21,049 nucleotides of DNA. Source: a virus. Positions within the stretch are counted from its first letter, which is position 1. The number at the start of each line of letters is the position of its first letter. Both the position numbers and the translations under genes were made by a program. Of the stretch, positions 1 through 12,167 are shown piece after piece. A model generated the notes under the pieces. It saw only the letters and a list, made by a program, of their open reading frames with translations. It was not told where the DNA came from and ran no database searches. The stretch is from positions 1-21,049 of IMG/VR virus record IMGVR_UViG_3300023084_000163; one strand, written 5' to 3'.

Positions 1-135
1 TACAACCCGTGTATCTTCAGTTACTGGATCACCTAAATCTACTACACTAAAGTTATCATTATGATTTCTATAACGCTCTTTTAGTGTTGTACCTCCTGTT
101 TTAGGACAGTGCGGAAAGACAATCATATCTTTCAT
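1..135 (-). CDS. Sulfotransferase family protein, N-terminal part (runs off left edge)
   Basis: Only the first 45 codons are in the window. The ATG at 135-133 overlaps the stop of the preceding gene in a TAATG junction, and a strong purine-rich ribosome site (AAGGAAGG) lies about 8 bases upstream, which supports this start; another ATG is at codon 4. Residues 5-18 read IVFPHCPKTGGTTL. This matches the 5'-phosphosulfate-binding loop of sulfotransferases (typical form H-x-PKTGGTSL), which in that family binds the donor PAPS. Known for the family: transfer of sulfate from PAPS to hydroxyls or amines of sugars and other acceptors. The catalytic and 3'-phosphate-binding parts are outside the window, so substrate and length are unknown. 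It ends a run of glycosyltransferase and radical SAM genes, which fits sulfation of a glycan or modified protein (inference). Confidence 0.7.
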   Translation of the reverse strand, partial: MKDMIVFPHCPKTGGTTLKERYRNHNDNFSVVDLGDPVTEDTRVV

Positions 136-683
136 TACATGTTCCTTCCTTGCAATCTCATCTTTATATGATTGATAAGATCATAGTCCAAGCTGTTCCA
201 ACTTGCAAAGTCAGCACGTAAACTGGTGTCCAGCATGTTGCTTTCAAATCTCGTGTTTACACTAATATTTCTATCTTCTACATCTAAAAACTCAGAAAGT
301 TTTTGATTAACCGTTTTCATATTATACGATTCATGATTAACAGTTTGTTCTTTTGGATACAAGTCTAATGCACTGATTTTAGGCCAAGTAATATAACTGC
401 TGAACCAAACAAAATCTCTAGTTTTAACAAATTCTCTGATATCTCTGATTCGTTCCAGACCCAATTGTTTAGTCATGTTGTTCTTTTCAATGAACAAATG
501 TTCTTCAATAGTTAGATTCTCTGGATTTCCTTTTTCGTCGAGACGATCAACCAACTGTTCAAACGCAGCATCAAACGGATCTCTAACTATTAAAATATTA
601 CCATCATCTTTTACCAATTCAAGATCATATGCATTGGCGATTGTTTCGTGATAATTGTAAGGAAAATGTATCAGTTTGTTCAT
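135..683 (-). CDS. Short sulfotransferase-like protein lacking a canonical PAPS loop
   Basis: A 182-residue protein. Residues 30-45 (ILIVRDPFDAAFEQLV) resemble the 3'-phosphate-binding segment of sulfotransferases (typical form FxR(D/E)P-x-(D/E)RxxS). The C-terminal WNSLDYDLINHI (about 162-173) resembles the NxLDYELY motif common near the end of that family. The loop that should carry PKTGGTS is absent: the N-terminus reads LIHFPYNYHETI, and the R-D-P motif follows after only about 20 residues, where family members usually have 60 or more. It could be a non-catalytic or divergent relative, an N-terminally shortened sulfotransferase, or a partner of the next gene, which does have the loop. The ATG overlaps the preceding radical SAM gene's stop (ATGA); the upstream ribosome site is weak, suggesting translational coupling. 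Assignment is by eye and moderate at best. Confidence 0.45.
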   Translation of the reverse strand: MNKLIHFPYNYHETIANAYDLELVKDDGNILIVRDPFDAAFEQLVDRLDEKGNPENLTIEEHLFIEKNNMTKQLGLERIRDIREFVKTRDFVWFSSYITWPKISALDLYPKEQTVNHESYNMKTVNQKLSEFLDVEDRNISVNTRFESNMLDTSLRADFASWNSLDYDLINHIKMRLQGRNM

Positions 684-1705
684 ATTTTTAACTTACTCAA
701 TATTAGATCTGTGTTACAGAAACAACTTTCTTTTTGACAAATGTACGGTTCTGTAGGCATTGTAAAATTCTCTGATTGATCAATTCTGCCAAGCCACCAA
801 ATACGTCCATGTTCATCTCTTTCCTCAGGAAGGCATGCTGCACCCGCAATCAATCCACGTTCATTTACAAATAGTCCGTCAATTCCTGCATTGCATTGCC
901 AGCCTTTAAATTGATTTTTTTGACTTGCGTACAATCCGTTTGTGTCAAAGATACTTTCTTCTTTGTATCTACCATCCAGTAACTGGTAGATAGCTGTAGC
1001 ATCAATAGGCATTGTGTACTGTTCATAACTCACATCAGGGTTGGCAGTTTTACGTTTGAAAGCAATTTTTTCATCTATCAAGGCTTGCTGCTCTGGAGTG
1101 TAAACATGTGGTTTTTCATTTTCAGTTAGCCAATCTGAGACAATAGGAACTTTTTCAACAAAAAACTGTCCCATCCTAGGCTCTGTTTTAAGTACATTAA
1201 AAAACTCAATACACTTGTCAAAATATTCTTGTTTTGGATGCATCATAATACGTACACCCAATAGTGTGTAAGGCCATAGTGTATCGATCACTTTAACACA
1301 GTGAGGAATACTTGTTTTTTCACTGTGAAAACTAAAACTTACCCAACGAAAACTTTTTTTGTGCTTTTCCCAGAACTTGATACTCTTACTACCGTTTGTA
1401 GTAAGTCCTACTTGCACACCTTGCTCAACTAGCCATGTTAAGAAGTCATCAAATATAGGCAGTGCAGTAGGTTCGCCACCAGTAAAGCTAATAATAAGTT
1501 CTTCGTCATCATTGAGATAACTTTTAACTTTGGACACAAAATCAATATAGTGTTGTAATTCAAATTGAGGACTTGTTCCTGCATAATTGTATGGATGACA
1601 ATACTCACAACTAAAGTTACACTTGTTGGTCAAGTTCCAATTGATGTGAAAGTAATTGTTATACTTTTGTTTGATTTCTACTAGTTCTGCACTATCCGAT
1701 AACAT
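680..1705 (-). CDS. Radical SAM protein with C-terminal SPASM/twitch-like Cys domain
   Basis: A 341-residue protein. The radical SAM motif CNFSCEYC places the [4Fe-4S] ligands at Cys29, Cys33 and Cys36; the SAM-contacting GGEP motif is at 76-79, followed by a TTNG motif. Such enzymes cleave S-adenosylmethionine to a 5'-deoxyadenosyl radical. The C-terminal fifth holds Cys271, Cys291, Cys323, Cys328 and Cys330 (C-x4-C-x-C at the end), a layout like SPASM/twitch domains that bind an auxiliary cluster, although it does not match the classic SPASM spacing exactly. Family members with such domains often modify peptides or proteins, for example by forming thioethers or C-C bonds; substrate here is unknown. 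It overlaps the preceding orphan gene by 14 bases, with a modest AAGGTAG ribosome site. It differs in architecture from the two radical SAM genes upstream, whose extra cluster domain is N-terminal. Confidence 0.85.
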   Translation of the reverse strand: MLSDSAELVEIKQKYNNYFHINWNLTNKCNFSCEYCHPYNYAGTSPQFELQHYIDFVSKVKSYLNDDEELIISFTGGEPTALPIFDDFLTWLVEQGVQVGLTTNGSKSIKFWEKHKKSFRWVSFSFHSEKTSIPHCVKVIDTLWPYTLLGVRIMMHPKQEYFDKCIEFFNVLKTEPRMGQFFVEKVPIVSDWLTENEKPHVYTPEQQALIDEKIAFKRKTANPDVSYEQYTMPIDATAIYQLLDGRYKEESIFDTNGLYASQKNQFKGWQCNAGIDGLFVNERGLIAGAACLPEERDEHGRIWWLGRIDQSENFTMPTEPYICQKESCFCNTDLILSKLKI

Positions 1706-2681
1706 TGTAATCTACTACCTTGTTGTATCCTGGCTTTGGCACAACATCAAATGATCCTATTTTCATCATGCCCCAGGTTAGCATGTTGTATCTATTTCTA
1801 ATGTCTGTTTTTTTAATTTTGTAGCCTCCCCAATAATTGTTGAGACTGTACTCTAAATGCTCCCATGTAGTATCATGATATCTAGAATCTCCACACCAAA
1901 ACAATAACTCTCCTGTATAACAACACTGTTGTTCTATCAAGTCAAAACTGTTACTGGTCATTTTTACAGCATTAAATTCTTCGTTATCATATATGTCTAC
2001 CATAATGCTGTCATAGTCATATCCTATCTGTGTAGGATATAAAAATATCTCTCCAGGATGACGTTCAAAACTAAATCTATCAACCCACTCGTCGTCTAGC
2101 AAGTGAAAGTTGTCGTGAAACTTTAAACCAAAGTTTTGTAAATTTTGATCCTGTGTTAATGAACTAGCAATCTCTCTCAGTAACTTCAGTGTATAAAATA
2201 TATCAACCAATTGATCGATGTGTTCTATTAAATGTTGATCATTGAGAACACGATAAATTGTAATGATCTGTGTTTGCATAGGATTGAGTATTTCTTGATG
2301 CACATGAAATCCCCAAGCACTGCTCATTGTTCCACTAAAAAGATTTAAATCTTCCATTCTAGGAATCAAGTTATCAATAGTACAGTAAGCGTTGCCGCTT
2401 GCCATCACAGTGTAACCTAATATATCACTGAGTTTAAAATTACCAACATCGTACTTTTTGGCTACTTTATTCCATTGATTGACTTTTTGATCTAGTTCTT
2501 TACTAACAAGGATAAACTTATTAAACGCTTCATTTTTGCTGTACACATTGTATTTGGTAACTTGAGGCAGTTCAAACATTTTCAGTTTGTCAATACCCAA
2601 GTCGAACCAATCAGTCCAAACATCGCATGTAACTTTTACTTGTTCATCTAATAGATTAGCCAGTGTTACTTCAAACTTCAT
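1692..2681 (-). CDS. Orphan 329-residue protein between radical SAM genes
   Basis: I do not recognise this family. It is soluble-looking, with no signal peptide or membrane segment visible. It is rich in Asp, Tyr, Trp and His, with short acidic/aromatic stretches such as FHVHQEIL and GDSRYHDTTWEHLEY (near residue 270), which could be metal or substrate contacts, but no named motif fits. Its ATG overlaps the stop of the radical SAM gene before it (ATGA) and its end overlaps the start of the next radical SAM gene by 14 bases. This wedge between two radical SAM genes with coupled translation suggests a partner, such as a substrate-binding scaffold or a second modifying enzyme (inference). No other function can be argued from sequence. 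Confidence 0.75.
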   Translation of the reverse strand: MKFEVTLANLLDEQVKVTCDVWTDWFDLGIDKLKMFELPQVTKYNVYSKNEAFNKFILVSKELDQKVNQWNKVAKKYDVGNFKLSDILGYTVMASGNAYCTIDNLIPRMEDLNLFSGTMSSAWGFHVHQEILNPMQTQIITIYRVLNDQHLIEHIDQLVDIFYTLKLLREIASSLTQDQNLQNFGLKFHDNFHLLDDEWVDRFSFERHPGEIFLYPTQIGYDYDSIMVDIYDNEEFNAVKMTSNSFDLIEQQCCYTGELLFWCGDSRYHDTTWEHLEYSLNNYWGGYKIKKTDIRNRYNMLTWGMMKIGSFDVVPKPGYNKVVDYNVIG

Positions 2682-3967
2682 TCATAGTGTCTCCACAATT
2701 GATAAAGTTCTGGAAAACTGTCAACAAAGCTGGTTTTTCTCATACGATCAATACTGCCAATATATCTATTGAGAGCATCCCACTTGTCGCTCCAATCCTC
2801 GCTGTTCATAAAGTCTACTACACTTCGCAATTCTTGTACTTTGTTTTTATCAGGATACTTTTCAATAAACTTGAGTAGTTTAACTGTGACTTGTTCTTTG
2901 ATTTCTTTGGGCAATACTTTGCTGCACAGATACTGCGGAAAGTGTAGTATGCCTGGATGGAACATGCCTTGATGATCATGTATGCCAATCTTTTTATAGT
3001 CTTTGGCAAATAACCATTCTGCAAAGTCTGGCAAATACCAAATATTAAGTGCGCTCACTGTACACAAGACTTTGCCAACAATGTGTGGGGGAGCATTTTC
3101 TACTTTGTCTAATGTTTTTTCAACTGTTGACCAATCTGTAGGATAACGTAGCCAATGGTTTTGATCACCCATGCCATCAATACTCAGCATAAGTTCTACA
3201 AATTTAAAGTTACTCCACAGCTCGATAATATCATCTGGCATGATAGTACCGTTGGTGTGATAACGCAATTCAATATTTTGTGCGTGTCCACTTTCTACAC
3301 ACTTTTTCAAAAAGCGTTTGTGATTTTTTAGATACAGTGGCTCGCCGCCTGCAAAAATAAAGTGACGCATGTTAGGCAACAATGGTTCGATTTCGTCAAT
3401 CCAAAACTCATCATCAGCTGCCCACTCAAAACTGTTTTGTTTGTGATCTTGAATTTTCCATTCCCAATCGTGCTTGACTTCGCCTTCGCTGTCAGCAGCA
3501 ATTGTTTCAGCAGCCTTGACCCATTTGCTTGAATCTGTAGGTCTACACATCACACACTGTACATTACAGGTATTACCCAAACGCAAATCCAATGTGATAA
3601 CTCCTTGGTCTAAGTGTCCATCTTCTCGAGTACTGGCAATGAGATTGTCAATGTATTCTCTGCCTAGTTTTTTACTCCAGAGATTGTTTTCATTCATTCT
3701 ATGACTGCGAATACCACTGGCTTCTTCTTTCCAACAATGTCTACAAGCAGGAAGTGCTTTGCCTGCTATCATGTCTTTGCGAGCGTTTTTAAAATAGTAA
3801 CTGTTCCAAACAGCGTCAATGGTAGCATTGTTTAGATTGAGTCTGTCATCGTCTGTTGGCTGCGCTAAACAACACAACAAACTTTTACCATTGGTATATG
3901 TTGCCATGTGTATCCACGGAAGTATACAAAATTTACTTCCGTGATCTTCTAGAAAATCTTGAGCCAT
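2678..3967 (-). CDS. Radical SAM protein with N-terminal twitch-like cluster domain (copy 2)
   Basis: A 429-residue protein. An N-terminal Cys domain comes first: Cys14 in FCILPWIHM, Cys32/Cys33 after a T-x-G turn, and C-x2-C at Cys75/Cys78, the order seen in SPASM/twitch auxiliary-cluster domains. The radical SAM core follows, with CNVQCVMC (Cys134, Cys138, Cys141), GGEP at 207-210, an HTNG motif and SIDGMG later in the barrel. The match to twitch-containing radical SAM proteins seen in phage genomes is good. Reaction and substrate are unknown; the family chemistry is radical modification started by SAM cleavage. It is a clear paralogue of the gene just upstream, with the same domain order and motifs but strong divergence, so an old tandem duplication. 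Its ATG sits in a TAATG overlap with that gene. Confidence 0.87.
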   Translation of the reverse strand: MAQDFLEDHGSKFCILPWIHMATYTNGKSLLCCLAQPTDDDRLNLNNATIDAVWNSYYFKNARKDMIAGKALPACRHCWKEEASGIRSHRMNENNLWSKKLGREYIDNLIASTREDGHLDQGVITLDLRLGNTCNVQCVMCRPTDSSKWVKAAETIAADSEGEVKHDWEWKIQDHKQNSFEWAADDEFWIDEIEPLLPNMRHFIFAGGEPLYLKNHKRFLKKCVESGHAQNIELRYHTNGTIMPDDIIELWSNFKFVELMLSIDGMGDQNHWLRYPTDWSTVEKTLDKVENAPPHIVGKVLCTVSALNIWYLPDFAEWLFAKDYKKIGIHDHQGMFHPGILHFPQYLCSKVLPKEIKEQVTVKLLKFIEKYPDKNKVQELRSVVDFMNSEDWSDKWDALNRYIGSIDRMRKTSFVDSFPELYQLWRHYE

Positions 3968-5307
3968 TAAATCATCTTTCTTATTGCTTGATATAAGTCA
4001 TCGTCAACAATACTAAAATTAGTATTGCGCTGTCTGTCCCATACTTCAGTCATCTTAACAAAGTCTGTTAGATTTTCTTTCCAGTTGTCCAACTGTTCTT
4101 GGTCCAAATAACCAATGATACCATCTACACTGTTTTTGATAAGCCAACTCTTTTCATATAACATACTACATTCGTTTTTGAATTCAATCAATCTATTTTT
4201 AGCATCTTGTCTCATTTCAACAGGCAAGTTTCTAACATCTAAATAATTAGGATGTGTGTTAATCAGTATGTCAACTCCTATGTGTTTCCAGTCGCTATCT
4301 GAATAGTATTCGTTTGTAAGATCATTTGCTAGATACAATATCTCGTGTATACGATTTAGATTGTAGATTTGCAGTACAGGAGTAATATTACTGTTTACAT
4401 TTGGCAAATCCAGCATACTGCGATAGTTACGTTGAATAATATCCCAACTCTTTGTGCCTCTGATGAATTCATTTACAACACCAACACCATCTAAACTTGC
4501 ATTGAGATCAACACTTTCAAATTTGCTGATACTGTCCAAAAACTTTTGATTTGCGTTTGTGCAGTTTGTGTTCATAAACACATTGATGTGACTACTGTGT
4601 CCTTGTTCTGCTGCTAGATTCAAAAACTCCATGTTGTTTTTGATCATAGTAGGCTCGCCACCAGTCATGTAAACTTTTCTTAGATTAGGCATCCATTCGT
4701 AAATGTTATCCCAAAAATCATCAGCATCAAACTTTTCTCTATACTCAGTACTGTTGATCCAGTCTGGGCGTTTGCCATATGTTTTTTCTTGGATGCGAGT
4801 ATAATCTTCTTCTACATCTGTTAGTTTGGAATCTTCTTTGGCAATAGTACTACTGTTAAAACTGTTGCACATTCTACAACTGAGGTTACACAAGTTGCCT
4901 AATCGCAAATCCAAGTACAACGGATCGTGTTCTTCCAATGCAAAATCATTAGCATAGCTAGCTTCTATACGTTCATGAATAGCTTCTTCACCAATTCGGC
5001 GTTCCCACTCGTCATTGTGCATTTGCCTAAAACTTTTTTTGCCGACTTCTTCTTGCAAGTAACAGTGCTTACAACTTTCAACACGCTCACCTTGCAACAT
5101 TGCCATGCGAATGTCACGCATGTCTTTGCCGTTCCATGCTTCTTTTAGTGTTGTTTTGCTGATGTCTAATATTTTACCGTCGTCGCCTCTGAGCACACTG
5201 GGTTTTGCGATACAGCAAAAATCAATGCTACCGCTGGTATTAACCATCATACTTAACCAAGGGTAAACACAAAATGTTTCCCCGTAAATTTCATCCCATT
5301 CAGCCAA
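3967..5307 (-). CDS. Radical SAM protein with N-terminal twitch-like cluster domain (copy 1, TTG start)
   Basis: A 446-residue protein. The N-terminal auxiliary-cluster domain has Cys13 (FCVYPWLSM), Cys31/Cys32, Cys79 and Cys82 (SCKHC). The radical SAM core has CNLSCRMC (Cys140, Cys144, Cys147), GGEP at 216-219, an NTNC segment where many relatives have TNG, and a SLDGVG motif. The start is the TTG at 5307-5305: no in-frame ATG occurs before codon 20, which would cut into the conserved FCxxPW motif, and a GGAAGA ribosome-site-like stretch precedes the TTG. The first 8 bases overlap the preceding glycosyltransferase gene. An ATG at 5300 overlapping that gene's TGA stop is in another frame. It is paralogous to the next gene. 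Likely a cytoplasmic peptide/protein- or sugar-modifying enzyme; substrate unknown. Confidence 0.87.
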   Translation of the reverse strand: MAEWDEIYGETFCVYPWLSMMVNTSGSIDFCCIAKPSVLRGDDGKILDISKTTLKEAWNGKDMRDIRMAMLQGERVESCKHCYLQEEVGKKSFRQMHNDEWERRIGEEAIHERIEASYANDFALEEHDPLYLDLRLGNLCNLSCRMCNSFNSSTIAKEDSKLTDVEEDYTRIQEKTYGKRPDWINSTEYREKFDADDFWDNIYEWMPNLRKVYMTGGEPTMIKNNMEFLNLAAEQGHSSHINVFMNTNCTNANQKFLDSISKFESVDLNASLDGVGVVNEFIRGTKSWDIIQRNYRSMLDLPNVNSNITPVLQIYNLNRIHEILYLANDLTNEYYSDSDWKHIGVDILINTHPNYLDVRNLPVEMRQDAKNRLIEFKNECSMLYEKSWLIKNSVDGIIGYLDQEQLDNWKENLTDFVKMTEVWDRQRNTNFSIVDDDLYQAIRKMI

Positions 5308-6280
5308 TTGAATCTTCCACTTGGTCTTCTCTTACCATTGCACCCAGTCTTGCTGGATTTTTGTAAACTCTTTTAAAGAACTTACTACCGCTTTTTCCCA
5401 AGTCACTGATTTCTAAGTCTAGTACACCTTTGATCTCTTCTCCAAGTTCAACTGTTTTAGCTTTGAGTTTATCGTAGTCCCACATCATTCCAGTGTTGAC
5501 ACACATTTCAGTACCGCCTTCGAACTCAGGAAACAGTTCTTCTTTGAAGTAATTGCTGAGCCAATCAAAGTCACGTACATTTTTCCAATCCCAACTGTGA
5601 CGATCAATATTTGTCATTTTAGCACCAAGTCTAGCACCATAAACTGCCCAAAGACCATTGGTAACATCTTCGCCTACACTCATCCAAACCAACAAACGTT
5701 TGTAGTTTTCATGATGAATTTTTTTAAGTTCTTTTGGATCAACTACATCACCGCCTTCTAATCCCATCTTAACGCCTTCACGGAACCCAGCCCGCCATGC
5801 TTGTAGAGGCGAACCATTGTTCATCACATCACAGTATACATTGTTCATTTGTACATAGTGAATATTCCAGCAAAAATCTACTTGAGCACGTTTATCACTT
5901 TCAGGTGCTGCTTCATGTGTACGCATACGCTCAACAACATGTTTAGGCCAACATTTGATACCACCATTGCCATACACCAATCCGTTGATTGTGTTTTTAC
6001 CTGCCCAACTTATAACATCGTCTTGTCTTATACGATCCATATCAACTTCAATATTGAAAAAATCTTCTCTGACAATATTGTCTGCATCAATGGTCACAAA
6101 TCTGTCAGTTTCACTGAGTTCTGCAGCGGCCTTGTGTGCTGCATCACTGCCCCATACTCCGTGACTGCGTTTAGCCCAAGGGCATTTTTCTAATAGATCA
6201 TTGTAATTGTGTTCAGCATTAGGCTCGTCATAACTGATAAAAACAATGTCAAATTCATTTATTGGTACTAGGTTAGACAT
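5300..6280 (-). CDS. Putative GT-A-fold glycosyltransferase
   Basis: A 326-residue protein. The N-terminus (DIVFISYDEPNAEHNYNDL, residues 11-29) looks like the first strand and nucleotide-binding turn of a GT-A glycosyltransferase. The segment FVTIDADN places a D-x-D-type metal/nucleotide-sugar motif at Asp65-Ala66-Asp67. A Gly/Trp-rich segment (NGGIKCWP, about 125-132) could be the acceptor side. I recall similar proteins from marine T4-like phages, but cannot run a search. Known for the fold: transfer of a sugar from a nucleotide-sugar donor; donor and acceptor are not predictable here. The start overlaps the preceding gene by 8 bases with an AGAGGA ribosome site. Its sequence differs clearly from the two GT8-like genes upstream, so it is probably a different family and step. 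Confidence 0.7.
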   Translation of the reverse strand: MSNLVPINEFDIVFISYDEPNAEHNYNDLLEKCPWAKRSHGVWGSDAAHKAAAELSETDRFVTIDADNIVREDFFNIEVDMDRIRQDDVISWAGKNTINGLVYGNGGIKCWPKHVVERMRTHEAAPESDKRAQVDFCWNIHYVQMNNVYCDVMNNGSPLQAWRAGFREGVKMGLEGGDVVDPKELKKIHHENYKRLLVWMSVGEDVTNGLWAVYGARLGAKMTNIDRHSWDWKNVRDFDWLSNYFKEELFPEFEGGTEMCVNTGMMWDYDKLKAKTVELGEEIKGVLDLEISDLGKSGSKFFKRVYKNPARLGAMVREDQVEDSIG

Positions 6281-7283
6281 TTAATAAGTCCTCTTCGATT
6301 ATGTCAAATGTGATATTTCTATTATCACCGACTGCTATAAAGTTACAGTTTTCTAAGTTACTATTTGTTGTAAGATAGAATTCATTGTTAAACCCTACAT
6401 CAGTTATTGGGATATGCAATGGTTCCATCAATTGATTTGGATTGTTTTTCTTAACCACATACAGTTTTAAGTTTGTGTAAATTCTATGTTCATGCGGATT
6501 TAAGAAATTGCTTTTTAACCAGTAGTGTTCATCACGTTTGATAATAGTAAACGTAGTGTTCACTTCTTGTTGTTTTTTACTTATCACAAGTTCATTTCTG
6601 CGTTTATCGCCTCGACTTGTAAAGTCAGCATTTACAAAATGACTTTTACGTTTTATACCATAGTTTTTGAAAATCTTTTTAGTTAGTATGTTTACTTCGC
6701 CTAGTCCGCAAACATTGCGCACATCACTTAGATCATACATAACAAAACCTTTTACGATCAGTTCTGCTGGATCAAGTTCTACAGTGTCTATCAGAAAGTT
6801 AGGATCGTTTTCTTTAATGAGATACAGTACAATCTTATCGTACTTTCCACCTTTTTCAGGGTTAATACTAACATCTCTAAACTGCCTTTTACCTGTCATT
6901 TTGTACAGTGTTTCTTGGCTAAAGTTTACTTCCATCTTCCAACTGTTGATGTAAAAAACAATGTTAACATCACTTTGTTTATCTGTAACAGGAACACTTG
7001 TTAAAAAGTTTTCACTGTCTCTGATACGCAGTACATCACCTCTTTTAATAAGTTTGTATCCTTCACTCAGTTCAACAACTGAATACTTTTTAGGATCTAC
7101 AACACCCATTAAAATTTGTCTAGCATCTTCATCTTCTGTTTTAAGATAAGGATGACGTATACGTTCCTTGGGCTTATTGGTTACAGTAATAATGTCGCCT
7201 GTTTCTTCATCGAAGTACACGCACCATTTTACTTTACGTTTAGCCTCTTTCTTGTCTTTCAGTAAGACGGGTTCTAAAGACAT
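6273..7283 (-). CDS. Unknown protein with internal duplication, within the glycosyltransferase run
   Basis: A 336-residue protein that I do not recognise. It is rich in Lys, Asn and short beta-type segments. Two parts of about 100 residues look like copies: KIVLYLIKENDPNFLID (about 151-167) matches LKLYVVKKNNPNQLMEP (about 273-289). Similar strand patterns occur before and after (a charged strand about 45 residues earlier; a Leu/Val strand, an Asn and a Gly-x-Gly-like turn after). This suggests two beta-sandwich-like domains, which could bind sugars or proteins (inference). The ATG at 7283 gives a 44-base overlap with the preceding glycosyltransferase gene; an AAAGAG ribosome-like site lies 6 bases upstream and the next in-frame ATG is about 58 codons later, so I keep this start. 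It lies between glycosyltransferase genes, so an accessory or acceptor role is plausible. Confidence 0.72.
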   Translation of the reverse strand: MSLEPVLLKDKKEAKRKVKWCVYFDEETGDIITVTNKPKERIRHPYLKTEDEDARQILMGVVDPKKYSVVELSEGYKLIKRGDVLRIRDSENFLTSVPVTDKQSDVNIVFYINSWKMEVNFSQETLYKMTGKRQFRDVSINPEKGGKYDKIVLYLIKENDPNFLIDTVELDPAELIVKGFVMYDLSDVRNVCGLGEVNILTKKIFKNYGIKRKSHFVNADFTSRGDKRRNELVISKKQQEVNTTFTIIKRDEHYWLKSNFLNPHEHRIYTNLKLYVVKKNNPNQLMEPLHIPITDVGFNNEFYLTTNSNLENCNFIAVGDNRNITFDIIEEDLLNV

Positions 7284-8109
7284 CTATTACTCTTTGATTT
7301 AAAAAATTTTCATCGCTGTAATGGATAATTCCATTATTCATCACGCTGTTTTCAATTTGTATTTTACCGTTATCACTGATCCAGACGTTCAATAGATCAG
7401 TCCAGCCTTCTGGCATTTCTTCGTGCCACACTCCTTGATTCTGTGTGTTAATATCATAATGATTTCCTAGAAAATACTTAACTTCGTCTTCCATGTCAAC
7501 ACAATGCGTTATCAAGTTACACAGTATATTTTTGTTAAATGATTCTGGCTTTTTTTCTGTAAAAAATTTGTTATAAACACTGCGCCAATTTTGCATCACA
7601 GGGTCTGCCATTTTAAACCATTCTGCTGCTTCTTTTGTTTCACTGCGCCAATAAATCATGTTGTTGTAATTTTTAGGCAATTTATATGCATCTTCGAAAT
7701 CAAACTTAGGCCAAGGAGCAGCTGGTAAATTTCTAAATGTAAACGCATTACCGGGCATAGCAATATCGTAACTTTCTAAACTTTCCCAAAGATCGTCAAC
7801 GTCAACGTTGTGTAATATTGTATCAGCATCTAAATAAATTGTGCGCTCAAAAGGAGTACAATGATACAACTGCCAAAGATTCATGCCATGAAAGCCATCT
7901 TTGTATGCTGTATTACCGTATGGTAGTTCAACAATATAATCAAATGCATGATGGTATTCTTCAGGAACAGTGTCGCTTTTTTCTTGGTCAACTACAAGGC
8001 AAAATTCTGCTTCAGGATCTGACAATTTCAAACTTAGTGCAAGTCCGTAACAGTATTTGATTCTATCTTTTTCAGTGTTGATCCCTAGTGAAATAAATCC
8101 TCTATTCAT
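7240..8109 (-). CDS. GT8-like glycosyltransferase
   Basis: A 289-residue protein. Residues 85-97 (TPFERTIYLDADT) carry the strand plus D-x-D motif (Asp94-Ala95-Asp96) typical of GT8/glycogenin-like enzymes, where it binds the divalent metal and the nucleotide-sugar donor. A late GIIHYSDE segment (about 263-270) fits the conserved H-x-metal-binding end of the GT-A domain. Family role: retaining transfer of a hexose or similar sugar from a nucleotide-sugar. Acceptor unknown; virion fibre or surface glycan is plausible from context. The ATG overlaps the preceding gene's stop (ATGA) and is preceded by AAGGAG at 7 bases, a strong site. The TPFERT-strand-DxD segment is shared with the gene upstream, so the two are paralogues. 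Confidence 0.82.
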   Translation of the reverse strand: MNRGFISLGINTEKDRIKYCYGLALSLKLSDPEAEFCLVVDQEKSDTVPEEYHHAFDYIVELPYGNTAYKDGFHGMNLWQLYHCTPFERTIYLDADTILHNVDVDDLWESLESYDIAMPGNAFTFRNLPAAPWPKFDFEDAYKLPKNYNNMIYWRSETKEAAEWFKMADPVMQNWRSVYNKFFTEKKPESFNKNILCNLITHCVDMEDEVKYFLGNHYDINTQNQGVWHEEMPEGWTDLLNVWISDNGKIQIENSVMNNGIIHYSDENFLNQRVIDVFRTRLTERQERG

Positions 8110-9023
8110 GAAGTTGCTCCTTCAAAACTCTGTCTGATAAAATCAATTTGTCTATCAAATGCACGTTTATTCATAAGATGTAAATTATCTCCACTGTACT
8201 TCATAAGTATGTTTTTCCATGGTTCTTGTCTATTGTGTTTTAAAAATATAACGTCATCTAAATTGTTAAACTTAACAATGTCATCTTTTTGATCCATGTT
8301 CAATAAAGGTGTACCTAAAAAGTCATGTACAAAATCGTCGTTGTTTAATCCATTGAACAAGTGTGCAGCGATACTTACACAAAAGTCTGTTCTAAACAGT
8401 GCTGGTGGGAATTGATACAACAAACTGTAGTATTCCCAATTGTCTTTTACATGTGCCCATATATCAAAGAACAATTTACTAAGAGGACTTTGATCAAAAT
8501 AAACCACTGTACTCCACCAATGATTGATTCCACTGGTGTTCAGTGTTACTTCACTTTGATAAGGTATTTCGCCACCCAAGTATTCTGCATATCTATGCAA
8601 TCCAACTTCGAAATCACTATCAAACACATAGTCATAAAAATCATTCATAACTAAGAAATCTGTATCGATCAATAGTGTGCGTTCAAACGGTGTGTTATTA
8701 AATACTCGGTGTTTATTAGTGTTTGTAAACTTTGCATTAAAATCAGTCCACGGACTATCGTGATGATTTCGTATGTTTCTATCTGCTTCACTACCTGGAT
8801 CGTCGATAACAACATAATCAAATACAGCATCAACATTTTTTTCGCCAATGCTTTGTTTCATCCATCCATACGAACCATCGTCAGTTATTAAAGCTACTTG
8901 ATTGTTTTTCATATTTCGTTTAACAAACTGAGCACATACATAAGCAAACTTTACATAATCCAACTGTTCGTTGTTGTAGGCAAACATACATATACCATTG
9001 CCTTTTTTAAGTGTCTTTGCCAT
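8106..9023 (-). CDS. GT8-like glycosyltransferase (first of two)
   Basis: A 305-residue protein. The segment TPFERTLLIDTDF (residues 111-123) has the D-x-D motif at Asp120-Thr121-Asp122. The N-terminal GICMFAYNNEQLDYVKFA reads as the first beta strand and helix of a GT-A fold, and the late NLHLMNKRA segment holds a His where GT8-like proteins place a metal ligand. Predicted role is sugar transfer from a nucleotide-sugar donor; donor and acceptor are unknown. The start ATG is in a TAATG overlap with the preceding 115-residue gene, with only a weak GGA-type ribosome site, so it is probably translated by coupling. It shares the TPFERT segment with the next gene but is well diverged elsewhere, suggesting an old duplication and different acceptors. 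Confidence 0.8.
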   Translation of the reverse strand: MAKTLKKGNGICMFAYNNEQLDYVKFAYVCAQFVKRNMKNNQVALITDDGSYGWMKQSIGEKNVDAVFDYVVIDDPGSEADRNIRNHHDSPWTDFNAKFTNTNKHRVFNNTPFERTLLIDTDFLVMNDFYDYVFDSDFEVGLHRYAEYLGGEIPYQSEVTLNTSGINHWWSTVVYFDQSPLSKLFFDIWAHVKDNWEYYSLLYQFPPALFRTDFCVSIAAHLFNGLNNDDFVHDFLGTPLLNMDQKDDIVKFNNLDDVIFLKHNRQEPWKNILMKYSGDNLHLMNKRAFDRQIDFIRQSFEGATS

Positions 9024-9370
9024 TACCAGTCCATTAAACTTTTAATATTTCTTGCTTTTTTAATTTTATCCAACTGAACTTTGTATTCATTAGCTGCTTC
9101 TGTATAAGAACTCAACAGTGTATCTAACAAATCATTCAAATCTTCAATTTCAATGGGGTTTTCTTTAGTATCTAAAATAATACTAGATTCTTTACCACTG
9201 TCTACTAATGCCTTAACAAAAGAAATAGTTTGTGGATTTGCGTGGAATACTCCGCTTTTATAGTGTATTGTGGTTAGTACTGACATACGTTGTCGTACTG
9301 TTCTCTTCTGGTTACTCAAAGTAATTCGATAGTTTGCGAATTCTAGAGCACGTTCGAGTCTCTCATCCAT
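9023..9370 (-). CDS. Conserved small protein at the head of the modification cassette
   Basis: A 115-residue protein, charged and helical-looking. It has a middle beta segment (GVFHANPQTISFVKALVDSG, residues 40-59), an acidic stretch with the NPIEIEDL motif, and a Lys-rich C-terminal helix ending in LMDW. I recall small proteins of this type from marine T4-like phages, always without known function. It could be a virion or assembly factor rather than part of the cassette. It is the first gene after the 59-base gap, has a clear GGAG ribosome site 8 bases before the ATG, and follows a late-promoter-like element and a sigma-70-like promoter. No enzyme motif or membrane segment is visible. Confidence 0.8.
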   Translation of the reverse strand: MDERLERALEFANYRITLSNQKRTVRQRMSVLTTIHYKSGVFHANPQTISFVKALVDSGKESSIILDTKENPIEIEDLNDLLDTLLSSYTEAANEYKVQLDKIKKARNIKSLMDW

Positions 9371-9396
9371 ACGAGTTTCTCCTATAATTATATGCT

Positions 9397-9426
9397 ACTA
9401 TAACTTATTTATGTAGGGTTTGTCAA
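9397..9426 (-). promoter_or_regulatory. Sigma-70-like promoter
   Basis: On the minus strand a perfect -35 box TTGACA (9426-9421) is followed after 18 bases by TATAGT (9402-9397), five of six matches to TATAAT. It lies just upstream of the 115-residue gene, with transcription expected to start around 9388-9390. It overlaps the late-promoter-like octamer, so one or both may be used at different times. Read by eye. Confidence 0.5.
9406..9413 (-). promoter_or_regulatory. T4-type late promoter-like element
   Basis: Minus-strand octamer CATAAATA, one mismatch from the T4 late consensus TATAAATA. It is in the only sizeable gap between the virion genes and the 9.4-kb modification cassette, about 35 bases before the 115-residue gene's ATG. 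In T4, late promoters are read by RNA polymerase with gp55, gp33 and the sliding clamp. I found no other octamer of this kind by eye downstream in the cassette, so this may serve the whole run. Confidence 0.5.
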
Positions 9427-9429
9427 CGA

Positions 9430-10611
9430 TTAAAAATCGTTTGGACTTGTTAAATTATCGAGAATTGTTAACACAGGATCTGGACTAACATCAAATGTTG
9501 CTCCGCCTTGTGTGATTACATCTGGCATCAAATAGCTGCATGATGCAGCAATGCTACCGTCGATAAAATTGTAGTGTTGACTATCATCAAGTATAAACTT
9601 CAGATGCACATCAGCACCGTTGTTAGCATACTTTCCATAAATTCTAAACTTCAATTGCTGATAGCTGCTATAAATGCTGTATGCACTAGCATATACACTG
9701 TTGCTGTATGTACCGCCTATTATAGCAGGATCTGCCCATTGATACCAAGTGCCCGGACCTTGTATGTATCCGTATGCTGTACCGTATCCGTATCCATATC
9801 CATATCCATATGATCCTACTTGTCTACTCAGTGTAACACCACTACTAGTAAACAACAAACCTTCATCTGGCGTTCCGGCATCACTACCATCGCCAAAATA
9901 TTCTGTTAGATCGTAGAAACCTTTACCTTCACTAGTGCCAAGTGTAATTGAATTACTCTGAAAGAAGTTATCCCATGTCATGTTTAGCACACCCATTTCA
10001 TTGATAACATCTGCCCAGTTGTAATATCCAGCAGTTGAACCGTTAGTCATCTCTAACGCAAGGCGTACTTGTCCACCGCCGTTAAAGAAATATCTCGCAT
10101 CGTTATAACTGTTCCAACTCCACACATGTTCGCCTATTAGTCTGTTATCCCAAAGTGCGCTTCTAGTATATGGTCCGCCACTAGTTGGTGTCGCAGGCAA
10201 TGCACTAGCATCAGCTGGATCAACTGTAGCGTGATTATTGTTTACAAGTATTGTGTTTGTAAATTTGTTTTCAATTAAATTTAAATCTTCTGCACGTATC
10301 GGTGTTTGTGCTGTTACGTCTGTTCTATTAACAGGTGTTGCAAATACCAATACACTGTCAGTTACATCAATGTGATTAATACTTACATTTGTACGTTCTA
10401 CTAGGTCTTGTAATCTTTCCGCAGTAATTAGTGTGCCAGGACTTAAATTATCAGTGACATTGATTGCACCCCACCCGTACTTGTGAGTGTCTTTTCTATT
10501 AACATCCGTCACAGCCGCAGAAGGATATTTGTCACCGAAGACTAAATTTACATCTTCCGCTACTGTGTTATAATGTGTGGCTTCTGCTAACTGGCCCACG
10601 TTCTGCGGCAT
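9430..10611 (-). CDS. Virion structural protein with Gly-Tyr repeat
   Basis: A 393-residue protein with no catalytic motif. It has a T/N/V-rich N-terminal half with repeated short strand motifs (ITAERLQDLVER and IRAEDLNLIENK, two helix-like copies) and a Gly/Ser/Tyr-rich C-terminal half. It includes SYGYGYGYGYGT at about 266-277, a low-complexity run encoded by a hexanucleotide repeat. The composition, length and position after a fibre-like gene suggest a tail-fibre or baseplate-associated structural protein of a marine T4-like phage. Its ATG overlaps the preceding gene's stop (TAATG) and is preceded by AGGAG at 7 bases. The gene ends at the promoter gap. The exact virion location is unknown. 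Confidence 0.7.
   Translation of the reverse strand: MPQNVGQLAEATHYNTVAEDVNLVFGDKYPSAAVTDVNRKDTHKYGWGAINVTDNLSPGTLITAERLQDLVERTNVSINHIDVTDSVLVFATPVNRTDVTAQTPIRAEDLNLIENKFTNTILVNNNHATVDPADASALPATPTSGGPYTRSALWDNRLIGEHVWSWNSYNDARYFFNGGGQVRLALEMTNGSTAGYYNWADVINEMGVLNMTWDNFFQSNSITLGTSEGKGFYDLTEYFGDGSDAGTPDEGLLFTSSGVTLSRQVGSYGYGYGYGYGTAYGYIQGPGTWYQWADPAIIGGTYSNSVYASAYSIYSSYQQLKFRIYGKYANNGADVHLKFILDDSQHYNFIDGSIAASCSYLMPDVITQGGATFDVSPDPVLTILDNLTSPNDF
9783..9812 (-). repeat. In-frame hexanucleotide repeat (Gly-Tyr)
   Basis: Five tandem 6-base units of the form C(A/G)TAT(C/G) on the plus strand, coding on the minus strand for alternating Tyr-Gly in the 393-residue structural protein. The units are in frame, so gain or loss of one would change protein length by two residues without a frameshift. 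A degenerate partial copy lies just left (about 9765-9775). Confidence 0.75.
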
Positions 10612-11528
10612 TACTTCGCTCCTACTACTACTTCAATTATACCTTGATCATCGGTATCTTTTGATTCAAGAGCTCTACCAATTATCTTTCTGTAATCATC
10701 TAATTCTGAGGGATCAGCTCGTCTAGCTGTTCCTGCATATGCACTAGAAACTAGTCTATCCCCTTTTGTAATTTGTCCTACAACTTTGCAAGGAACACGC
10801 CCTGCTAGTGCTACAAATGGATGTGTAGCATCAGTACCTGCGCCTGCATTCATTTCAAAACCTGGTGCTGTACTAACAATACCAAATACATCTGGATCTC
10901 CTGTTTGTAGAGTTTGTGTAATTTCATGTGTGCCGCCTAAGCGCACAACTGTACCTGCTTCGTATGCTTCATCAGCTTCGTAACGTTCTGCAAGGTCAGC
11001 ATATTCAGCACTAGTAGCAGTACCTCTAAATTTGTAATCAGTTGTGGTATTCATATTGATGCCTGCTTGAATAGTTGGAAACTGAGTACTTAGAGCTGTA
11101 ACACCATCTTCTAAAAATTCTGTTGGTGCTGGTATCCAGGCTGTTGTGTCATCTACAATAATACTAACAATGTTATCATCCACAATAGTTTCAATTGTCC
11201 AGTGATATACTCCAAGTGTATCTAATCTTTGTCTATACTCGATACGTGTAGTTCCAGCTGGCGCACCAATTGGATACCATTGCCCATTATCATAAAGCAT
11301 TAAACGACTTGTACTTGTGTCGTACCAAAGTTGTCCTTCAGTTGGATTGTTTGGTGCTGTGCCGTCAGCAAAATTTTCTAACAGTGACAGCAGGTTTTCG
11401 TTTAGGATTTCACCAAATCTTGTGTAGTTTTTACCTATCAGAGAAAGACTAGTACTAGTATCTACTGTACCATCATTTACTACTATTGGTGATTTTCCTG
11501 GATCATTATAATCTATTGTATATGGCAT
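10611..11528 (-). CDS. Tail-fibre-like virion protein with peptidase-G2-like C-terminus
   Basis: A 305-residue protein. The N-terminal 80 residues (TIDYNDPGKSPIVV, then SLIGKNYTRFGEILNENLLS, then GQLWYDTSTSRLMLY) match the conserved beginning of fibre-associated proteins of marine T4-like phages. The second half starts with AEYADLAERYEADEAYEAG near residues 173-191, followed by Gly-rich strands (LGGTHEIT, GIVSTAPGFEMNAG, VGQITKGDRLVSS). This resembles the peptidase-G2/IMC-like self-processing trimer domain of phage fibres. Role inferred: assembly or trimeric tip part of a fibre. The ATG is preceded by a TAGGA site at 7 bases and sits 12 bases after the previous stop. Its stop overlaps the next gene's ATG (TAATG). 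Confidence 0.72.
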   Translation of the reverse strand: MPYTIDYNDPGKSPIVVNDGTVDTSTSLSLIGKNYTRFGEILNENLLSLLENFADGTAPNNPTEGQLWYDTSTSRLMLYDNGQWYPIGAPAGTTRIEYRQRLDTLGVYHWTIETIVDDNIVSIIVDDTTAWIPAPTEFLEDGVTALSTQFPTIQAGINMNTTTDYKFRGTATSAEYADLAERYEADEAYEAGTVVRLGGTHEITQTLQTGDPDVFGIVSTAPGFEMNAGAGTDATHPFVALAGRVPCKVVGQITKGDRLVSSAYAGTARRADPSELDDYRKIIGRALESKDTDDQGIIEVVVGAK

Positions 11529-11540
11529 CTTATTTTCCTA

Positions 11541-12140
11541 TTATAAGTCCGAGAACGAACTTCTTATCCTTAGTGTGTATACTACTTGAATTTTTCTGTT
11601 TGCGCTTTTTTGCACTGGGTGAAAAATCACATGAGTCAACAAATCGTTGTTGGCTGTATAGAGAGCTAGTTCATCAAAGACGTATGTGTCATCCATGTTA
11701 GTTGCAGTGTCTGTTAAATCTTGACCTGCTGGAATACTATAGTCTAGTGTACACGTAGTTGTAACATCGCTATAGTTACTTGGGCTAGAATGACTAGCTA
11801 AAACTTGGTTGTCACTAGAAGCTGTAATAGCATCGTCTACTACTTGAGTGTGTGTTTCGTTATAAAGTGCTCCACTTGCACTGTTAGTGTTGGTTGCTTT
11901 GTATGTGACTGCGCCTAAGCCGTCAATACTAGTTCCGCCGTTGCCAAAACGCATAGTACTAATTTCGTAAGTACCGGTACTGCCACTGCTATTGGCTAAC
12001 AAATTAGCAATAGCAATGCTCATGTTTTCAAAGTTCACAGCATTACGTCTGCGAACCAGCACCTCACCTGAATCAGGATCCCAAATTTTGATATGCCCTT
12101 CAATTTCAACTAGTGGTGTTTCAATTTTGTTTAAACTCAT
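11541..12140 (-). CDS. Small virion structural protein (199 residues)
   Basis: I place the start at the ATG at 12140-12138 and not at the longer upstream ATG at 12233. The longer frame would begin inside the giant gene and precede the late promoter, whereas translation from 12140 gives MSLNKIETPLVEIEGHIKIW, the expected start for this kind of phage protein. A GAG-type ribosome site lies a few bases upstream. Conserved-looking segments are IKIWDPDSGEVLV with RRNAVNFENM near the N-terminus, a Gly/Ser/Thr-rich middle, and LTHVIFHPVQKSANRKIQVVYTLRI at the C-terminus. These recall small conserved structural proteins next to large fibre genes in marine T4-like phages. Exact role unknown. It is the first gene after the late promoter. 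Confidence 0.72.
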   Translation of the reverse strand: MSLNKIETPLVEIEGHIKIWDPDSGEVLVRRRNAVNFENMSIAIANLLANSSGSTGTYEISTMRFGNGGTSIDGLGAVTYKATNTNSASGALYNETHTQVVDDAITASSDNQVLASHSSPSNYSDVTTTCTLDYSIPAGQDLTDTATNMDDTYVFDELALYTANNDLLTHVIFHPVQKSANRKIQVVYTLRIRSSFSDL

Positions 12141-12159
12141 AGCTCTTTTCCATTTGTAG

Positions 12160-12167
12160 TATTTATA
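12160..12167 (-). promoter_or_regulatory. T4-type late promoter (perfect octamer)
   Basis: Minus-strand TATAAATA at 12167-12160 matches the T4 late promoter consensus exactly. It overlaps the stop codon (TAA at 12165-12163) of the giant gene and lies 19 bases before the ATG of the 199-residue gene, leaving a short leader with a GAG-type ribosome site. This is a good reason to choose that start. Confidence 0.7.

Follow-up and report, generated by a model that had tools for sequence, protein, structure and literature searches.

A conserved gene core of putative glycosyltransferases and an exchangeable radical SAM island behind phage fibre genes

What might a phage build with glycosyltransferase (GT)-like, radical SAM and sulfotransferase genes in one operon directly behind its fibre genes? 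The question is raised by the window analysed here, a 21,049-nucleotide stretch of viral DNA (IMG/VR record IMGVR_UViG_3300023084_000163, positions 1 to 21,049). The answer we favour, and to which we give about even chances, is a glycan locus in two parts, encoded by marine relatives of Rak2-like jumbo phages, in which a fixed fibre-linked core is joined to an exchangeable biosynthetic island and which probably decorates the virion fibres.

Operon layout and structural neighbours

1..135, minus: first part of a sulfotransferase gene that extends beyond the window (PF03567 match and motifs)
135..683, minus: 182-aa island protein of unknown function (ORF; position kept in relatives)
680..1705, minus: 341-aa radical SAM protein, island (PF04055, E 5.2e-9)
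1692..2681, minus: 329-aa orphan, island (without family match)
2678..3967, minus: 429-aa N-twitch radical SAM protein, island (NF033640, 393 bits; PF04055 and PF13186)
3967..5307, minus: 446-aa N-twitch radical SAM protein, island (NF033640, 359 bits)
5300..6280, minus: GT326, predicted GT-A type glycosyltransferase, core (predicted fold; Foldseek; DAD motif)
6273..7283, minus: 336-aa tandem beta-sandwich protein, core (predicted structure)
7240..8109, minus: GT289, GT8-like by motif only, core, missing from one lineage (YLDADT motif)
8106..9023, minus: GT305, GT8-like by motif, core (DTD motif)
9023..9370, minus: 115-aa conserved core protein (ORF; between fibre gene and GT305)
9371..9429, minus: 59-bp gap ahead of the operon that holds sigma-70-like and T4-late-like motifs (motif scan)
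9430..10611, minus: 393-aa fibre- or adhesin-like protein with a Gly/Tyr-rich stretch (position and synteny)
10611..11528, minus: 305-aa fibre-type structural protein (PHROG 6427, 15511, 22593, weaker structural families)
11541..12233, minus: 230-aa structural protein (phrog_11259, E 6e-58)
12163..21039, minus: 2958-aa giant virion structural protein (phrog_10938, virion structural protein, E 3e-208)

The first-pass annotation had described eleven coupled minus-strand genes behind one promoter region. In the ORF list of the window, ten complete ORFs (115, 305, 289, 336, 326, 446, 429, 329, 341 and 182 aa) run head to tail on the minus strand from 9370 to 135, with overlaps of 1, 4, 44, 8, 8, 1, 4, 14 and 4 bases between successive members, whereas the eleventh gene, for a sulfotransferase, begins at 135 and is truncated by the window edge. 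It is complete (276 aa) in the 99.9% identical contig L003, and in near-identical contigs the operon continues with a second sulfotransferase, two methyltransferases, three further radical SAM genes, an aminotransferase, a kinase and a carbamoyltransferase. A single promoter region in the gap at 9371-9429 is plausible and remains putative: a TTGACA-18-TATAGT match there scored highest in the scan, although hits overall were about as numerous as in shuffled sequence. The T4-late-like motif CATAAATA lies in the same gap at 9413. An Rfam search gave no match and a tRNA search found none.

Upstream of the operon, the 393-aa fibre- or adhesin-like protein had no match in family searches. The 230-aa structural protein, whose true start is probably downstream of 12233, shares up to 46% identity with proteins of Rak2-like jumbo phages, and three of these phages (CBB, GAP32 and Atu_ph07) have the structural neighbours s3 and s2 in common with the window. 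In Atu_ph07, s3-s2 are followed by three radical SAM genes; the stretches of CBB, Atu_ph07 and Vibrio phage 2.275.O that were read showed no GT core.

The fibre-linked core

The core gene set comprises the 115-aa gene, GT305, usually GT289, the beta-sandwich protein and GT326. Its order and strand do not vary among the environmental phage loci (84 of 84; 40 of 40 after redundancy was removed), fibre genes precede it in every one, and an order so conserved is far beyond chance. Where a locus extends that far, the 115-aa gene almost always sits between fibre gene and GT305. Conserved order beside fibre genes, the check proposed with the annotation, is thus borne out for the core. Searched by tblastn against 50,697 deposited phages, GT305, GT326 and the 336-aa protein gave no match; GT305 has 132 relatives in viral contigs.

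The annotation had named two GT8-like enzymes and one other GT-A enzyme. None of the three putative GTs receives a name from Pfam, PHROGs or NCBIfam, nor do GT305 and GT289 have a significant match in these collections to a profile of GT8 or another GT family, and we assign all three less firmly than the other enzyme classes of the locus. GT326 carries an invariant D-x-D motif (DAD, 24 sequences), its predicted fold is of good quality (pLDDT 84.8, pTM 0.85), and its best 50 PDB matches in Foldseek are all glycosyltransferases, TarP, TarS, SunS and WrtF among them (best E 4e-4, with TM scores only near 0.3). A GT-A fold in the model together with the D-x-D motif identifies GT326 as a predicted GT-A type glycosyltransferase. 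GT305 may be called GT8-like from its motif, a D-x-D invariant in 33 sequences and DTD here, and GT289 is a candidate GT by one D-x-D motif and its conservation. Profile searches of the PDB returned nothing for GT305 or GT326. The fast-evolving 336-aa protein, found in almost all loci, is predicted to consist of tandem beta-sandwich domains with weak FN3-like matches, and is probably not an enzyme.

The constant attachment of the core to fibre genes bears on two other uses of such enzymes. Known phage GT modules alter host O-antigen, and genes related to those of the window occur in bacterial chromosomes, so that the cassette might instead remodel the surface glycan of the infected cell, for receptor masking or superinfection exclusion, or make an extracellular product. 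We consider this quite unlikely, given the invariable link to fibre genes and a core without any recognisable membrane flippase, polymerase or bactoprenol GT. Known phage base modifications also involve GTs, PLP enzymes and radical SAM enzymes, and the GTs and radical SAM proteins could in principle modify bases of the phage genome. This seems highly improbable for a locus that sits with fibres and not with replication genes; a search with one hypermodification family, PF18724 (ADDT), gave nothing, but its control was silent too, and it carries no weight either way.

Island enzymes and their exchange

That the window holds three radical SAM genes, as first annotated, is confirmed by Pfam matches in all three proteins (E 5e-9, 1e-10 and 8e-8), but the auxiliary clusters ascribed to each of them are supported for two. 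The 429- and 446-aa proteins are members of NCBIfam NF033640, 'twitch domain-containing radical SAM' (393 and 359 bits; curated cut-off 170 bits), a family whose phage copies form large arrays and for which we found no established function. Their auxiliary-cluster domain is N-terminal, and the cysteines of the CxxxCxxC motif (C140/C144/C147) are invariant across four sequences, as are the N-terminal auxiliary cysteines C13, C31, C32, C79 and C82. The 341-aa protein is not a member (29.8 bits) and has no auxiliary domain by Pfam; its best phage matches are in Campylobacter phage CP220 and Pelagibacter phage HTVC008M. Its identity as a prokaryotic viperin was rejected (NF038283, 54.9 bits against a required >180).

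One or two PAPS-dependent sulfotransferases had been proposed in the window, and one is upheld. The cut gene matches PF03567 (Sulfotransfer_2) just under the cut-off (E 2.9e-4, 21.5 bits against 22), the same family exceeds the Pfam cut-off in four records of relatives, and the gene carries PKTGGTT and RDPxxRxxS motifs. The 5'-PSB P-loop-like and 3'-phosphate-binding motifs are conserved across eight sequences of this gene and the next, the second sulfotransferase, which lies outside the window (L003:15979-16734); by these motifs both are predicted PAPS-dependent sulfotransferases. Their PDB matches are weak (heparan sulfate 2-O- and 6-O-sulfotransferases, E 0.02-0.03). The 182-aa gene, which keeps its place in relatives, was rejected as a second sulfotransferase, having neither a significant family match (Pfam, PHROG) nor a P-loop-like motif.

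In full, the island of the window type encodes six radical SAM proteins, two sulfotransferases, two methyltransferases, an aminotransferase, a carbamoyltransferase and a kinase/nucleotidyltransferase pair. Whether this pair might supply PAPS, as APS kinase and ATP sulfurylase, is ambiguous from sequence: the kinase matches PF01583 above its cut-off (30.0 bits) against 30.9 for AAA_33, and its partner, below all family cut-offs, carries an ISATKIR motif that we take to be typical of other nucleotidyltransferases. Across islands, enzymes of sugar type include a NodU-type carbamoyltransferase, an FkbM methyltransferase, a GDP-mannose dehydratase/epimerase, a ribulose-phosphate epimerase and a SIS domain.

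About six distinct phages have the radical SAM/sulfotransferase block in the same gene order, and among them the 446-aa protein is 85-87% identical and the 329-aa orphan, without family match in Pfam or PHROG, 56-61%. Other phages, whose backbone is just as similar, have unrelated islands in which radical SAM genes are again numerous (14 in 37 kb; 18 in 87 kb). Such numbers are, to our knowledge, far beyond those usually reported for phages. Contig L027 is closer to the window in backbone than L017 is (GT326, 82 vs 78% identity; s3, 80 vs 69%), yet the window shares its island (56-87% identity) with L017 and not with L027. The island is thus swapped between similar backbones.

The core also occurs without radical SAM genes nearby. 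In a second phage lineage such genes lie near the core in 0 of 13 cases, against 16 of 18 in the other lineage, an absence that holds within the reach of the contigs, which are fragments. The core therefore does not need radical SAM chemistry and, with unrelated islands on similar backbones, core and island are linked but separable. The presence of GT289 is associated with radical SAM genes (p = 5e-7), an association confounded by lineage. Among 16 records, Sulfotransfer_2 was found only in the window's island type. Of the single pathway with three enzyme types that had been postulated, the order of the core (84 of 84, behind fibres) and of the island in about six phages supports one fibre-linked functional unit, while the enzyme types themselves come apart.

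In the literature available to us we found no paper on a joint radical SAM/GT/sulfotransferase phage cassette, and the annotation had been unable to name one. A near precedent does exist: the Campylobacter phages CP220 and CPt10 carry interchangeable clusters of five radical SAM genes and an amidinotransferase (PMC2853527), and the CP220 module also has two GT-A (nucleotide-diphospho-sugar transferase) genes. In these phages, unlike the window, no GT305/GT289/GT326 core was detected in the stretch examined, and no sulfotransferase is annotated there. The CP220 amidinotransferase family is also present in one marine island. The authors of that study termed the 11 radical SAM genes of CP220 highly unusual and suggested a metabolic benefit of the interchangeable module (PMC2853527). 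Extended to the window, their suggestion would have the island supply the host cell or release a bioactive small molecule, the site behind the fibres being a recombination hot spot only. The high variability of the islands would suit this; a fixed, co-oriented GT core and the tracking of radical SAM genes with GT289, subject to the confounding noted above, make it very unlikely.

Sugar or protein as substrate

In the glycan locus that we favour, the core (the 115-aa protein, two or three GT-A glycosyltransferases and the beta-sandwich protein) would be tied to the fibre genes, and the island enzymes would make or tailor unusual sugars by radical SAM C-H chemistry followed by amination, methylation, carbamoylation and sulfation. 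The GTs of the core would then attach these sugars to an acceptor made by the phage, the likeliest being the fibre proteins whose genes lie just upstream, and an island swap would alter the outer surface, much as with bacterial O-antigen or capsule clusters. Enzyme classes, operon structure, gene order and island exchange can be read from the sequences; the sugar substrate, the unity of the pathway and the virion as its target are inferred. The invariant core order, the GT326 fold, the D-x-D motifs of GT305 and GT326, the collinear yet exchangeable island, its sugar-type enzymes, the radical SAM and GT-A genes of CP220 and the neighbours of GT326 in Bdellovibrionota (see below) argue for such a locus; the lineage without radical SAM genes, the three GTs unnamed by known families and five roseobacter genomes with GT326 and without the N-twitch radical SAM subfamily weaken it. 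Virion decoration has been proposed or shown for GTs of mycobacteriophages and of moraphages, which have four core GTs (PMC12619734), and the sections of that account available to us describe no radical SAM or sulfotransferase islands in virion glycosylation systems.

Peptides are the substrates of many SPASM/twitch radical SAM enzymes, most of the characterised relatives being peptide maturases, and the one PDB profile match obtained here is SkfB. Asp/Asn hydroxylase-like (Asp_Arg_Hydrox) genes recur in the phage islands and in Bdellovibrionota arrays, so that protein modification would fit too: the radical SAM enzymes would act directly on fibre residues (epimerisation, cross-links, or hydroxylation with the Asp/Asn hydroxylases) in a RiPP-like manner, and the GTs and sulfotransferases would add to the modified residues. 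The adjoining fibre genes, a JmjC/cupin gene alongside the radical SAM genes of Atu_ph07 and the peptide S-glycosyltransferases SunS/ThuS among the GT326 fold matches agree with this. We nevertheless hold it to be unlikely, since the carbamoyltransferase, epimerase, aminotransferase and nucleotidyltransferase of the islands suggest sugar or small-molecule synthesis, and a search that was not systematic turned up neither a short precursor peptide nor a RiPP recognition element.

If it is indeed a virion sugar that the radical SAM enzymes make, phages would possess a serotype-like system based on new sugar chemistry, and a function open to testing could be proposed for the N-twitch radical SAM family. 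A bolder form of the glycan reading, which we offer tentatively and with the balance of probability against it, is that jumbo phages keep a fixed fibre-linked GT core and swap large radical SAM islands, using genes from a toolkit that predatory Bdellovibrionota and Campylobacter phages also possess, giving a self-made, serotype-like virion glycan that is built by radical chemistry and diversifies by block replacement. The Bdellovibrionota link offers a second, cellular system for testing. Of 8 Bdellovibrionota genomes examined, 6 have relatives of GT326 within 5 kb of N-twitch radical SAM genes, in arrays that, unlike the window, are apparently chromosomal and have neither fibre genes nor GT305/GT289. 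In a radical SAM array of this group 17 of 29 ORFs are radical SAM genes, and one locus adds two GT2 genes, a flavin amine oxidase-like gene and QueC- and hydroxylase-like genes.

Extent of the operon and its enzymes

In this 21,049-base virus record, ten complete minus-strand ORFs run from 9370 to 135 with overlaps of 1 to 44 bases, and an eleventh ORF of the operon is cut by the window edge. The coupled gene run described in the first-pass annotation is thus borne out, but its limit of eleven genes is not: contigs 99.9% identical to the window occur in other samples, and one of them, 32 kb long (loci L003 and L015), carries the operon further and brings its radical SAM genes, window and extension together, to six.

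Operon genes on the 32-kb contig, in order past the window edge
Sulfotransferase, 276 aa, the complete form of the window's cut gene
Second sulfotransferase, directly after the first
MORN-repeat methyltransferase-like protein
FkbM methyltransferase
Radical SAM protein, 448 aa
Aminotransferase
Two further radical SAM proteins
Two small proteins, SGNH-like by eye
179-aa protein
Small kinase
Nucleotidyltransferase-like protein
NodU-type carbamoyltransferase

The phage gene at L003:16731-18155 fuses a MORN repeat to a methyltransferase-like domain (Pfam), and inspection by eye alone suggests that the one at L003:18820-20166 joins MORN-like repeats to a radical SAM protein.

Two of the window's radical SAM proteins belong to the N-twitch family NF033640, with an N-terminal auxiliary Fe-S domain, and the third lies outside it; no cysteine of either cluster site differs between the paralogues. 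The three putative glycosyltransferases, GT305, GT289, and GT326 (named for their lengths in residues), found no match in family searches. A DxD motif is invariant in GT305 and in GT326, the confidently predicted fold of GT326 matches GT-A enzymes in the PDB at low TM scores, and GT289 is assigned from its motif. The sulfotransferases possess both PAPS-binding motifs and give weak but specific family scores. Of the one or two originally proposed, only the cut gene, partly inside the window, stands; the 182-aa gene was rejected as a sulfotransferase. The 336-aa "orphan" is predicted to form tandem beta sandwiches and is therefore more likely to be structural or carbohydrate-binding than an enzyme.

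A 230-aa neighbor of the operon has its matches among Rak2-like jumbo phage structural proteins, a 2958-aa neighbor matches a virion structural family, and contigs related to the window are as long as 192 and 285 kb, so the window probably comes from a relative of this phage group. As listed, the 230-aa gene begins at a TTG and shares 71 bases with the giant gene (12160-12233); the TATAAATA motif at 12167, with an ATG beyond it, points to a later start. The 393-aa fibre-like protein contains a Tyr-Gly repeat (YGYGYGYGYG; window 9740-9800, minus strand) that is absent from its homolog in locus L004 and could be a variable loop.

A core of fixed order and an exchangeable island

Viral contigs were scanned with three proteins (GT305, the 336-aa protein, and the 446-aa radical SAM protein), which yielded ~85 distinct loci, in which core genes were called with profiles built for this analysis. 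Conserved order beside the fibre genes is found for the glycosyltransferase core: all 84 loci holding GT305 have, on the same strand, structural genes, the 115-aa gene, GT305, (GT289), the 336-aa gene, and GT326, and order and strand are kept in 40/40 loci once near-duplicates are removed. Because core genes served to collect the loci, their presence is biased by sampling; order and strand are not.

Radical SAM genes lie within 7.5 kb in 16 of the 18 non-redundant loci with GT289 and in none of the 13 without it, which instead have two or three copies of GT326 (p = 5e-7 for GT289 against nearby radical SAM genes, a value that overstates independence because the difference is essentially one between two lineages). 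The core can therefore occur with no radical SAM chemistry next to it. Most of L053-L057, L059-L063, L066, and L068-L101 make up the second lineage, in which the core lacks GT289, GT326 has two or three paralogs, and no radical SAM gene is nearby.

Downstream of the core, islands rich in radical SAM genes are exchanged. The window's island type is collinear up to each contig's end (at least 11 genes in long contigs) and is carried by the window group, L004 (cut by the contig end), L017/L018, L019/L020, L021, and L126 (from a MAG). Locus L027 is closer to the window than L017 in its structural and core genes (GT326, 82% versus 78%; structural gene s3, 80% versus 69%), yet its island differs, with radical SAM genes only 28-31% identical to the window's, whereas L017 has the window's island type at 56-87% identity. 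The island thus moves as a block, and its last genes (carbamoyltransferase, kinase, and nucleotidyltransferase) recur in other island types too. Of the single cassette of three enzyme types first envisaged, gene order is kept within the island type and within the core, but the glycosyltransferase part is separable from the radical SAM/sulfotransferase part.

The islands of four phages (99 ORFs) give 45 Radical_SAM and 38 NF033640 matches; Radical_SAM matches number 18 on one 87-kb contig and 14 on one 37-kb contig. Sulfotransfer_2 occurs only in the window's island type among the 16 records searched. The main rival to a glycan pathway is that the radical SAM enzymes modify protein directly. 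A glycan pathway is the simplest account of the locus: GT-A enzymes occupy fixed places, the island supplies sugar-tailoring kinds of enzymes, and its block exchange recalls bacterial surface-polysaccharide loci. The analysis itself establishes the operon structure, the gene order, the island exchange, the tie of GT326 to the radical SAM family in phages and bacteria, and, as far as graded above, the enzyme classes; we infer the unity, substrate, and target of this pathway; the virion fibre is the likeliest acceptor, since the core's link to fibre genes is fixed.

Relatives in bacterial assemblies and known phages

Bacterial assemblies contain GT326 relatives. Contigs L126-L130, L132, L135, L145, L148, and L150, found in MAG bins, are plainly phages because they carry core and fibre-type genes. 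Together with L151, they were assigned to MAGs of bacteria and archaea (Gammaproteobacteria, Rickettsiales, Bdellovibrionales, and others), which may reflect either hosts or binning errors.

GT326 is associated with the N-twitch family in bacteria as well as in phages. In six of eight Bdellovibrionota genomes without a core-plus-fibre phage locus, GT326 has an N-twitch radical SAM gene no more than 5 kb away, and N-twitch matches in these genomes, up to 33, form dense arrays; in the same scan 0/14 control genomes rose above the cut-off, and five roseobacter genomes have GT326 alone. The L139 neighborhood, the sole one inspected end to end, looks chromosomal by eye. Asp/Asn hydroxylase-like, QueC-like, and amidinotransferase genes are common to the Bdellovibrionota arrays and the phage islands. 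A 917-kb contig of a Bdellovibrionia MAG has ~14 N-twitch genes in 30 kb (L153:5471-17992, L154:1242-16895), and its amidinotransferase-like gene scores 365 bits against a marine phage island gene (L120:11444-12505).

The first-pass annotation could name no such joint cassette, but one phage module combining two of the three classes of enzyme had been described before. This known module of Campylobacter phage CP220 (L156:20691-29274) comprises, besides five radical SAM genes and an amidinotransferase gene, two of GT-A type (nucleotide-diphospho-sugar transferases); its authors described the module as interchangeable and could offer no more than a guess about what it is for (PMC2853527). Some 10 kb beyond it is a protein distantly related to the 305-aa fibre-type protein (42.5 bits). 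The deposited 255-kb Vibrio phage K566 has six NF033640 matches, two above the cut-off (L006:9325-26692); the glycosyltransferase core was not found within a 41-kb stretch. The structural genes s3-s2 of a cultured jumbo phage, Agrobacterium phage Atu_ph07, are directly followed by three genes for radical SAM proteins and one of the JmjC/cupin type (L110:11909-18647).
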